DNA of 64,000 bases, taken from assembly GCA_944322305.1 (NCBI GenBank), contig CALUOP010000004.1, positions 62,001-126,000 of the forward strand, given 5' to 3'. The notes beneath the pieces were generated by a model that saw only the letters and a list, made by a program, of their open reading frames with translations, searched no databases and was not told the DNA's origin. Within the stretch, counting starts at the first letter, position 1; each line of letters starts with the position of its first letter. Both the position numbers and the translations under genes were made by a program. Below, in pieces: positions 13,518 to 44,516 of the stretch. The DNA comes from an uncultured Coriobacteriaceae bacterium. Lineage in GTDB: Bacteria > Actinomycetota > Coriobacteriia > Coriobacteriales > Coriobacteriaceae.

Positions 13518-13632
13518 GGGCGCCTTCGGCGGCAATGCTCCGCCGAGTTCTGAGCCCGCCTTTTCGCAGGGCGTAAGCCCGCGAAAAGACTGCGGGCGAT
13601 CACGAGGCGGAGCCTTGCCGCCGAAGGCGCCC
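13518..13632. repeat. Long intergenic palindrome C (115 nt, 27-nt arms)
   Basis: The left arm 13518-13544 and right arm 13606-13632 are complementary over 27 nt with one mismatch; the outer 18 nt (GGGCGCCTTCGGCGGCAA and its complement) are perfect. The centre holds nested stems: GCCCGC/GCGGGC, TTTTCGC/GCGAAAA and GGGC-GTAA-GCCC. Arm length, overall size and the inner motif TTCTGAGCCCGCCTTT match the family A elements near 40.7 and 44.3 kb, though the arm sequence is unrelated. No T-tract follows directly. The remaining gap (13379-13517 and 13633-13765) shows no gene. Confidence 0.85.
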
Positions 13633-22850: not shown

Positions 22851-22918
22851 GGGGCGCGGGCGATAAGAACCCGGATTTTGCCCGATAACAAAATCCGGAA
22901 CCTTATCACCTGCGCCCC
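22851..22918. repeat. Palindrome B1 (family B, first doublet)
   Basis: 68 nt with outer arms GGGGCGC/GCGCCCC, then GATAAG/CTTATC, then CGGATTTTG/CAAAATCCG around CCCGATAA. It pairs in composition with B4 near 27.87 kb, which has the same GATAAG and GGGGC features. Confidence 0.85.
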
Positions 22919-22949: not shown

Positions 22950-23027
22950 CGCCTTGGCTGCGGGGGACAAGGTTCTCAGATTTGATATCGGGTAAATCTG
23001 ACGTTTTTGTCCCCTGCAGCCAAGGCG
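22950..23027. repeat. Palindrome B2 (family B, first doublet)
   Basis: 78 nt. Arms 22950-22968 and 23009-23027 are complementary over 19 nt with one mismatch. The core AGATTT-GATATCGGGT-AAATCT is the family B core in opposite orientation to B1. A 31-nt spacer separates it from B1. The gap 22750-23088 holds nothing else recognisable except the start region of scpA. Confidence 0.87.
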
Positions 23028-26198: not shown

Positions 26199-26891
26199 AT
26201 GATCGTTGCGATCGACGGGCCGGCGGGCTCGGGTAAGTCTACGATAGCCGGCCTCGCAGCCGAGCGCTTCGGCATGGCCAAGCTGGATACGGGGGCGATG
26301 TACCGCGCAGTGGCGCTGGCGGCGCTTGAGCGCGGCGTGGCGCTTGACGACGCAGAAGCGCTCACCGAGCTTGCCCATGCCGTTTCGCTCACCTTCGAGC
26401 CCGACGCAGCTGGCATGCTGCGCATCTGCCTGGACGGCCGCGACGTTTCACGCGAGATCCGCACGCCTGAGGTCGACGCGGCGGTGTCGCTCGTAGCCGC
26501 GGTGCCCGGGGTGCGCGAGGGCCTGGTGGTCCAGCAGCGCCGCTTTGCCGAGAACCACGACGTGGTGGCCGAAGGGCGCGACATCGGCACGGTGGTGTTC
26601 CCCGAAGCCGAGGTGAAGGTGTTCCTCACGGCTGACCCGGCCGAGCGCGCGCGCCGCCGCGTGCTGCAGCGCCACGGCGGTCAGATGGACGACAAGGACG
26701 CCTTCGAGGCCGAGGTGGCCGAGACCCTCGCCGGCATCGAGGAGCGCGACCGCATCGACTCCTCGCGCGACGTGGCCCCGCTCAAACCCGCGCCTGACGC
26801 GGTGAAGGTCGACTCCTCGGCGCTGTCCGTCGACGGCGTGCTCGACCGCATCGCCGCGCTTGTCCGCCCGCATCTTGAGGAGTCGCGATGA
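26199..26891 (+). CDS. cmk: Cytidylate kinase
   Basis: Phosphorylates CMP and dCMP. The 230-residue protein has the P-loop IDGPAGSGKSTIA, KLDTGAMYRAVAL, REIRTPEVDAAVS and the CMP-site motif VAEGRDIGTVVFPEA, with RIDSSRDVAPL near the end. AAGGAGGAG precedes the ATG. The stop overlaps the plsC start (ATGA). The cmk-plsC-ispH order is common in Gram-positive genomes. Confidence 0.97.
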   Translation: MIVAIDGPAGSGKSTIAGLAAERFGMAKLDTGAMYRAVALAALERGVALDDAEALTELAHAVSLTFEPDAAGMLRICLDGRDVSREIRTPEVDAAVSLVAAVPGVREGLVVQQRRFAENHDVVAEGRDIGTVVFPEAEVKVFLTADPAERARRRVLQRHGGQMDDKDAFEAEVAETLAGIEERDRIDSSRDVAPLKPAPDAVKVDSSALSVDGVLDRIAALVRPHLEESR

Positions 26892-27631
26892 AAGTGAAGC
26901 CCTTCGTCGCCTCGGTTGACGACTACTTCGACAACGGTATGGCCGAGTACCCGCTTTCTGCCCGCCTGTTCTACTATCTCGTGCTTACGGTGCTGTTGGT
27001 CTTCACCAAGCTCGCCTGGCCCTGGAAGATCGAGTGCCGCGAGCTTCTGGGCGAGGGCAAGCCCGCTGAGGGCGAGACGGGCAAGGTCATCATCTGCAAC
27101 CACACCTCCATGCTCGAGATCATCGCGATCGTGGTGGACGGTTGGACGCGCCACCGCCGCGTGCGGCCGCTGTTCAAAAGCGAGTTCGCTAAGAACAAGA
27201 TCATCGACTGGTTCTTCGCCCGCGTGGGCGGCATCCCGCTGCACCGCGGCGCGGCCGACCTCAAGGCCGTGAAGCGCGCGGCCAACGCCCTCAAGCGCGG
27301 CGAGGACATCCTGATCTTTCCCGAGGGGACGCGCGTCAAGTCTGACGACCAGCCGGTGAAGATGCACGGGGGCTGCGCGCTTATCGCCAGCCGCGCCGGC
27401 GCAGACATCGTGCCCATGGCCATCATCGGCGCGCGCGACATCAAGAAGAAGGGCAAGCTGCCGCGCTTCTTCCTGCGCGTGTGGATGCGGGTGGCCGAGC
27501 CTGTGACCGAGGCCTCGGTGCCGGCGGGGTATACGCGCAAGCAGCGCGTGCAGTGGATGGAGGACGAGTCCATCGCGCGGATGATCGGCATGCGCGACTG
27601 GCTCAAGCGCGAACATTGCGGGCGGAACTAA
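26888..27631 (+). CDS. plsC: 1-acyl-sn-glycerol-3-phosphate acyltransferase family protein
   Basis: Adds the second acyl chain to make phosphatidic acid. The 247-residue protein has one hydrophobic N-terminal segment, the catalytic block NHTSMLEI, glycerol-phosphate site GGIPLHRG, and FPEGTRVKSDD. The catalytic HX4D motif reads HX4E here, a conservative change. It is translationally coupled to cmk. With plsY, gpsA and cdsA in the window, most of the phosphatidate route is present. Confidence 0.93.
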   Translation: MKVKPFVASVDDYFDNGMAEYPLSARLFYYLVLTVLLVFTKLAWPWKIECRELLGEGKPAEGETGKVIICNHTSMLEIIAIVVDGWTRHRRVRPLFKSEFAKNKIIDWFFARVGGIPLHRGAADLKAVKRAANALKRGEDILIFPEGTRVKSDDQPVKMHGGCALIASRAGADIVPMAIIGARDIKKKGKLPRFFLRVWMRVAEPVTEASVPAGYTRKQRVQWMEDESIARMIGMRDWLKREHCGRN

Positions 27632-27643
27632 CTTCCGCACGGG

Positions 27644-27775
27644 GCTGACCCGGACGCCCCGCAACGGCTCCTTGGCGAGGCGCAGGGGACGAGAACCTCG
27701 GATTTGCCCGATATCAAATCTGAGAACCTCGTTCCCTGCGTCTCATTCGTATACGCTTTGGGCGTCCGGGTCAGC
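27644..27775. repeat. Palindrome B3 (family B, second doublet)
   Basis: Outer arms 27644-27659 and 27760-27775 are perfect over 16 nt (GCTGACCCGGACGCCC). Inside them a second hairpin spans about 27678-27743, with CGCAGGG-ACGAG arms and the core CCTCGGATTTGCCCGATATC/CAAATC. It corresponds to B2 of the first doublet. Confidence 0.87.
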
Positions 27776-27839
27776 GCGGTGACATTGCTAGGTTTCGGCT
27801 GGAAGCCTTGAAAGCGCTTGAAAGAGTTGCCTTTCTGAA

Positions 27840-27905
27840 GGGGCGGGACGATAAGGTTCCGAAATCTGATATCGGGCAGATTTAGGGTTCTTATCGTCCC
27901 GCCCC
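27840..27905. repeat. Palindrome B4 (family B, second doublet)
   Basis: Arms GGGGCGGGACGATAAG (27840-27855) and its exact complement (27890-27905) enclose GTTCC-GAAATCTGATATCGGGC, the family core in opposite orientation to B3. It corresponds to B1. The 349-bp gap between plsC and ispH contains this doublet and no gene. Confidence 0.88.
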
Positions 27906-27980
27906 GTCTTGTGTGGTTCTCGTTTATAGCGGCTGAGTTGGTAGAATCGGTAGCGGGAAAGACTGGAGTGAGGAGGGCGT

Positions 27981-28829
27981 ATGGCTCGGATTGTGGTGGC
28001 TCAGCGGGCGGGGGCCTGCTATGGGGTTGAGCGGGCGCTTTCGCTTACGCTTGAGCAGGCTGAACAGGCGGCAGGGCCGGTGCATACGCTGGGGCCGCTG
28101 ATCCACAACCCGCTGGTGGTGGAGGATCTCGAGGCGCGCGGGGTGCGGGTTACGGACGCGCCGGAAGGCGCCGGCTCGGGGCTGCTCATCATCCGGGCGC
28201 ACGGCACCACGCCCGAGGTTATCGCCGACGCCGAGGCGCGCGGCCTGACGGTGCTCGACGCCACGTGCCCGTACGTGAAGAAAGTGCACGTGGCAGCCAA
28301 GAAGCTCGTGGACGCGGGATACGACGTGCTCGTGGTGGGGGAGGCCGGCCACCCCGAGGTTGAGGGTATCCTCGGTCACGCCGGGCACGCGCGCGTGGTA
28401 GGCGGCGTCGAGGACGTTCGCGCGCTTATCGACGCGGACGCGTTGGGTAAAAAAGTGGGCGTGGTGGTGCAGACCACCCAGACGCTCGCGCTTCTGCAGG
28501 CCGTGGTGGCCGAGCTGCTGGCTTGCGCGCAAGAGGTGCGTGTGGTCAACACCATCTGCGCCGCCACGCAGGAGCGCCAGCAGGCGGCGGCCGCCCTTGC
28601 CGCGCAGGCGGACGCCATGGTGGTTGTAGGCGGCAAGAACTCGGGCAACACGCGGCGCCTCTTCGAGATCTGCGCTGAGCGCTGCGCGCGCACCCACCAC
28701 ATCGAGGCCGCCGACGAGCTTGAGGCGAGGTGGTTTGCCGGTGTCGAGACGATCGGCGTGACGGCCGGCGCCTCCACGCCGCAGGCGCACATCGACGCGG
28801 TGGTAGCCGCGCTGCAGGCGCTGGCGTAG
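27981..28829 (+). CDS. ispH: 4-hydroxy-3-methylbut-2-enyl diphosphate reductase
   Basis: Last MEP-pathway enzyme, giving IPP and DMAPP with a [4Fe-4S] cluster. The three cluster cysteines are seen at C13 (AGACYGV), C96 (DATCPYV) and C193 (VVNTICAATQERQ), close to the E. coli positions. VVGGKNSGNTRRL and VGVTAGAST-like IGVTAGASTP segments are in place. At 282 residues it is compact but complete. GAGGAGGG precedes the ATG. Confidence 0.97.
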   Translation: MARIVVAQRAGACYGVERALSLTLEQAEQAAGPVHTLGPLIHNPLVVEDLEARGVRVTDAPEGAGSGLLIIRAHGTTPEVIADAEARGLTVLDATCPYVKKVHVAAKKLVDAGYDVLVVGEAGHPEVEGILGHAGHARVVGGVEDVRALIDADALGKKVGVVVQTTQTLALLQAVVAELLACAQEVRVVNTICAATQERQQAAAALAAQADAMVVVGGKNSGNTRRLFEICAERCARTHHIEAADELEARWFAGVETIGVTAGASTPQAHIDAVVAALQALA

Positions 28830-40700: not shown

Positions 40701-40813
40701 GGACCCTTTCGCTTTTGCTTCAGCGTGCTCCTCGCTCGCTTCTCTTGCGCGCCGCTTTCGCGGCGCTTAGAGGCTCGCTCAGAAGTCACGCCGAAGCAAA
40801 AGCGAAAGGGTTC
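40701..40813 (-). repeat. Palindrome A1 (family A, first doublet, subtype a)
   Basis: 113 nt. Arms 40701-40727 and 40787-40813 are complementary over 27 nt with two mismatches. The arm reads GAACCCTTTCGCTTTTG in its own orientation. A central 7-bp stem GCGCCGC-TTTC-GCGGCGC lies at 40749-40766. Between arm and central stem lie the conserved strands TGAGCGAGCCTCTAAGC and GCGCAAGAGAA. Orientation is minus by the core sequence. Confidence 0.92.
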
Positions 40814-40845: not shown

Positions 40846-40958
40846 GATCCCTCGGCCTTTAGTCATGGGATGTCTTTTGAGCGAGCCTCTATGCGGCACG
40901 CAGTGCCGCGCAAGAGAAAGCGAGCGAGGAGCATCCCGGGGTTAAAGGCCGAGGGATC
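40846..40958 (+). repeat. Palindrome A2 (family A, first doublet, subtype b)
   Basis: 113 nt. The outer 16 nt (GATCCCTCGGCCTTTA, 40846-40861) pair perfectly with 40943-40958; GGGATG/CATCCC closes the 27-nt arm. The central stem GCGGCAC-GCA-GTGCCGC is at 40893-40909. It is in inverted orientation to A1 across a 32-nt spacer. It lies upstream of the tRNA-Pro promoter. Confidence 0.92.
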
Positions 40959-44252: not shown

Positions 44253-44365
44253 GATCCCTTGCCCTTTACCGTCGGGATGCTCTTCGCTCACTTCTTTTTG
44301 CGCGGCACTGCGTGCCGCTTAAAGGTTCGCTCAAAAGACATCCCTACGGTAAAGGGCAAGGGATC
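44253..44365 (-). repeat. Palindrome A3 (family A, second doublet, subtype b)
   Basis: 113 nt. Arms 44253-44279 and 44339-44365 pair over 27 nt with one mismatch; the arm begins GATCCCTTGCCCTTTA. The central stem GCGGCAC-TGC-GTGCCGC is at 44302-44318. The core matches A2 closely but in reverse orientation. Confidence 0.92.
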
Positions 44366-44402: not shown

Positions 44403-44516
44403 GGCCCCCTTCGTCTTTGTCTCGGCGTGACTTCTGAGCGAGCCTTTAAGCGCCGCACAAGCGGCGCGCAAGAGAATGCGAGCGGGGAGCACGCCGAGAC
44501 AAAGACGAAGGGGGCC
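44403..44516 (+). repeat. Palindrome A4 (family A, second doublet, subtype a)
   Basis: 114 nt. The 27-nt arms 44403-44429 and 44490-44516 are perfectly complementary (start GGCCCCCTTCGTCTTTG). The central stem GCGCCGC-ACAA-GCGGCGC is at 44450-44467. The core matches A1. The rest of the gap to trxB (44517-44692) is AT-richer and has a weak interrupted inverted repeat GTTATGG/CCATAAC at 44538-44599, but no gene. Confidence 0.93.

Follow-up and report, generated by a model that had tools for sequence, protein, structure and literature searches.

In the 64,000-nt stretch of DNA analysed here (the window), the two hairpins between plsC and ispH are, judged from sequence, two copies (B3 and B4) of family B, a set of dispersed, REP-like 68-nt hairpins confined to a single gut-bacterial genus. 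The unit consists of a 17-bp lower stem, a 3x3 AAC/AAC internal loop, a 10-bp upper stem and an 8-nt loop, CCCGATAT. B3 (27,677–27,744, plus strand; 81.2 bits with the covariance model, together with folding and gene calling) starts 46 nt past the stop codon of the acyltransferase gene plsC (26,888–27,631, plus strand, PF01553) and points in the same direction as that gene, and B4 (27,839–27,906, minus strand; 84.3 bits) is convergent with B3 and lies upstream of ispH/lytB (27,981–28,829, plus strand, PF02401). In the fixed 68-nt geometry B3 forms 24 and B4 25 of the 27 possible Watson-Crick pairs, far above the maximum of 18 reached when the intergenic region was shuffled 2000 times, so that both hairpins described in an earlier sequence-only reading are present, as is the 16-bp perfect arm noted for B4. 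That reading had placed B3 at 27,644–27,775; the span does hold B3, but the repeated unit covers only 27,677–27,744, and the rest belongs to an outer frame. The frame itself is as described, with 16 perfect pairs between a left arm at 27,644–27,659 and a right arm at 27,760–27,775 (both plus strand). Two origins had been suggested for it, a target duplication and an earlier, nested insertion. In 41 copies the borders of the hairpins showed no excess of direct repeats over what the stem ends explain; the frame is thus not a target duplication, and the edge repeats that mark DNA transposons and MITEs are not a property of B. The frame has no second copy in the analysed sequence, made up of the stretches around B copies, and so nothing suggests, as far as sequence can tell, that a member of some repeated family inserted here earlier.

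The family was searched with a loop-core pattern and then with a covariance model built from 23 copies. After scoring of 150 of 515 first-look candidates, the 2.35-Mb genome (G000) was found to carry at least 44 strong and three variant copies, and further analyses of this genome were run on the sequence stretches around them. Nine copies were found in a sister species (G003) and at least one in a third congener (G002), the latter count and the absence of B from the fragmented genome G001 being lower bounds. Since long hairpins break assemblies, draft assemblies undercount B copies. Contig 33 of G002 begins (L063 1–120) inside a B hairpin whose 5' half is a poly-C assembly artefact. Among 65 genomes of the bacterial family, the pattern matched four; three of these belong to this genus, and the fourth, from another genus, had a model score no better than background. 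Pattern and model together thus gave no convincing copy outside the genus in this set. Two weak matches were rejected, one (G036) missing the conserved loop and one (G059) reaching 14.7 bits at best, and a single viral match to the core pattern was a chance occurrence without a hairpin. No Rfam family matched the B hairpins at the gathering threshold, and a direct-repeat search of the window returned, among the families listed, just coding similarity and tRNAs. Mean pairwise column identity was 0.45–0.50 in the outermost stem, about 0.3 just outside it and 0.25 further out; likeness between copies thus drops almost to chance level where the hairpin stops, and the boundaries are precise. At L129 5029–5129 lies a copy resembling B in which a different, longer hairpin stands in place of the upper stem and loop.

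All 47 copies are intergenic according to a simple codon-usage gene caller applied around them, lying between gene pairs that run ++ (16), -- (15), convergently (15) or divergently (1). Co-oriented single copies start 8–131 nt past the upstream stop codon (median about 32), and anti-oriented ones lie farther from the nearest gene 3' end than this (p = 0.006). Read in core orientation, T makes up 37% of the 6 nt directly 3' of the hairpin and 21% further on, with three or more consecutive T residues in just 10 of 47 copies. Within co-directional gene pairs 19 of 31 copies are co-oriented with the genes; since this bias is not significant, a terminator role for B, though reasonable to infer, does not count as a result. 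Adjacent copies are mostly convergent (11 of 13 pairs, with two in tandem; p = 1e-5), in support of the proposal that the repeated hairpins occur in doublets. The spacers of 12 doublets range from 36 to 165 nt, and no convincing common sequence was found among them; the one between B3 and B4 (27,745–27,838, not assigned to a strand) is likewise unconserved. Because the spacers are variable and share no sequence, the single hairpin is the unit.

The window holds one other doublet, between an M50 peptidase gene and scpA, made up of B1 (22,851–22,918, plus strand; 84.5 bits) and, convergent with it, B2 (22,955–23,022, minus strand; 70.3 bits). The sequence-only reading took the plsC–ispH doublet to be inverted relative to this one, with B3 corresponding to B2, B4 to B1 and the spacers alike once reversed. 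In core orientation both doublets read plus then minus, as do all 11 inverted pairs, and the supposed inversion is not there. B3 and B2 are indeed mutually closest (38 of 54 stem positions identical, 84th percentile; B2 is tied with one other copy), but the match between B4 and B1 is ordinary (35 of 54, 68th percentile), many other copies being as close to B4. The resemblance of the reversed spacers is not significant (p = 0.085). With more copies aligned, both the spacer likeness and the B4–B1 correspondence vanish.

Pairing is maintained across the family although the arms vary, as had been proposed from the window copies: 95.5% of stem cells are paired, and 24 of the 27 base pairs show changes on both sides. 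The 46 mismatches in B stems are strand-symmetric, with 24 G.U and 22 A.C, whereas selection on a sense RNA would be expected to leave G.U far in excess of A.C. A control set of 44 ordinary T-tailed, short-loop hairpins from the same genomes gave 14 G.U and two A.C (Fisher p = 0.017 vs B). The AAC/AAC internal loop is wholly unpaired in 35 of 41 copies, fully paired (3/3) in three and intermediate in three, and one G003 copy also has it fully converted to pairs. GGGTTC, complementary to the 5' arm, stands on the 3' side in the G003 copy and in two of the three converted copies, L108:14699 and L117:5050. Template switching within hairpins is known to make and maintain stems (PMC8794818; see also PMC8604942, PMC7202029), and the marks by which we would recognise it, strand-symmetric mismatches and block conversion, are both found in B; on sequence grounds they apparently reflect template-switch correction in DNA. 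The symmetry, measured on no more than these 46 mismatches, could also come from transcription of, and selection on, both strands, or from selection on a cruciform. The small number of converted internal loops means either that the mismatch is defended by selection or that conversion is rare.

Copies have been gained and lost between the sister species. Six of the nine G003 copies lie at sites common to G000 and the remaining ones have no G000 counterpart; conversely, B is missing in G003 from many of the sites that it occupies in G000, those of both window doublets among them. The window sites there hold unrelated hairpins, that between plsC and ispH being 67 nt long. Intergenic divergence is too high for a clean empty site to be found by comparison with G003. 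Several shared-site copies show paired changes on both arms, as at L101/L114, where C-G has become T-A twice with zero unpaired changes. At another shared site (L104 10703–12270 and L105 5044–6611) the two species agree at 99.9% over the B copy and the 1.5 kb that follow it, against 87% upstream, which is likely, from the sequences compared, to be the result of recent DNA exchange.

We give a probability of about 0.5 to a joint explanation in which B disperses as non-autonomous units, is retained at gene ends by termination or insulation, and has its arms kept up by template switching. The hairpins would spread as small non-autonomous units; at gene ends, hairpin and weakly T-rich 3' side might be kept as a transcription terminator, an insulator or an mRNA 3'-end block, and a convergent pair could serve both strands. 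DNA replication would switch template within the hairpin and copy one arm from the other, and such recopying would keep the arms complementary as they drift. No transposase could be tied to B. Covariation is the standard proof of functional RNA structure; if arms are recopied in DNA, covariation alone does not demonstrate that an RNA is functional. About 45 hairpins of one family in one genome, with pairing that looks strand-symmetric, set beside a control of ordinary terminators that lack this symmetry, offer a clean natural test of the share that template switching has in covariation.

Selection on a transcript is one competitor. Were such selection on a structured RNA, or on an intrinsic terminator of a specialised type, the source of the covarying stems, B's strong covariation, its conserved unpaired loop and internal loop, the one-sided T enrichment and the position after stop codons would all be expected, but the near-equal G.U and A.C counts, so different from those of ordinary terminators in the same genomes, speak against it, as do the lack of an Rfam family at threshold and the gain and loss of copies between sister species, and we regard it as unlikely. 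Less probable still is that terminator hairpins already in place received a conserved core in their loops, in which case the arms are simply the different old terminators. Some terminator stems are as GC-rich as the arms, B3 has its outer frame, and flanking inverted repeats of at least 9 bp occur in six of 41 copies; yet lower-stem length peaks at 16–19 bp, the arm positions share a consensus, and the B-less G003 sequence at both window sites contains no hairpin with matching arms.

It is also doubtful that a RAYT (Y1 transposase) mobilises B as a REP or REPIN, recognising single-stranded hairpins, with the inverted doublet as the mobile unit. The genome does encode one Y1_Tnp protein, and the inverted doublets, the conserved stem mismatch and the position downstream of genes recall REPs (PMC8266576, PMC3733652). 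The characteristic tags are nevertheless at background level in the 12-nt flanks of the 47 copies (GTAG in none on the 5' side, CGTC in 3 of 47 with about two expected), the variable spacers and many single copies argue against the doublet as the unit, and the excess of G.T over A.C on one strand that single-strand recognition should favour is not seen. The single RAYT-like gene (L131 1078–1869; about 265 kb on C4 of G000) has its own flanking hairpin family, GGGTYRGATGGAACACGTCCCC, of about 10 copies; with this different family at its flanks and no B found within about 4.5 kb, the gene was rejected as the mobiliser of B. The joint explanation of dispersal, retention at gene ends and template switching remains the one that we prefer.

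Other hairpin families were seen alongside B. Family A palindromes lie in the window at 40,703–40,811, 40,846–40,958, 44,253–44,365, 44,403–44,516 and 13,518–13,632; their arms of about 25–27 bp differ in each copy, are 85–100% paired and surround a core of about 60 nt, and two pairs stand as inverted doublets. Family C, of about 11 copies (L114 8965–9080, L110 5080–5180 and L183–L193 among them), has a conserved unpaired core, GTGCTCAAACAGCTTCG ... TGCAGAACTGCGC, with variable but paired outer and inner stems; at two sites a B copy is found about 17 nt away from it. Family D was seen in G003 as a doublet (L085 19225–19286 and 19328–19397) and a third copy (L097 1713–1782), the three having the loop AAGCGATTCTTGCTTGCAGGGG in common and arms that differ and are well paired; at the L125 site a B doublet in G000 is matched by a family D doublet in G003. 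We advance only tentatively the idea that in this genus the unrelated families B, C, D and probably A are all built from an invariant unpaired core and drifting stems that template each other, their covariation arising from template switching and not from RNA selection.

Compared with known systems, B resembles intrinsic (Rho-independent) terminators in being a GC-rich hairpin soon after stop codons with a T-enriched 3' side, but differs from them in its length, its conserved loop, its weak T-tract, its repetition as a family and its strand-symmetric mismatches. It shares with template-switch (quasipalindrome) mutation the homogenisation of arms and the multi-base conversion of mismatched stretches; here, in contrast, the pattern spans dispersed copies in one genome and is accompanied by an ordinary-terminator control. 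REPINs, like B, form inverted doublets, and compensatory changes on either side have been reported for them (PMC3116915), whereas B hairpins are independent units joined by spacers conserved neither in length nor in sequence, the compensatory changes lie within each hairpin, and the doublet does not behave as a unit. REPs are intergenic, lie downstream of genes in opposite orientation and in some cases need a stem mismatch, and a GTAG or CGTC tag is required of them (PMC3733652, PMC8266576). Like REPs and BIMEs, B consists of high-copy, dispersed intergenic palindromes that are genus-specific, lie mostly downstream of genes between unidirectional or convergent ORFs, have adjacent copies often opposed and carry a conserved stem mismatch. 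Its unit, however, is 68 nt long as against 20–40 nt, it has neither tag, it does not flank a cognate RAYT gene, and its stems drift widely, the conserved parts being the loop and internal loop, which are unpaired. In organisation B is REP-like without being a member of the REPs, and an untagged REP-like family is now documented in Coriobacteriaceae; this new family is ordinary in kind, and what is unusual in it is the strand-symmetric upkeep of pairing in stems that drift.
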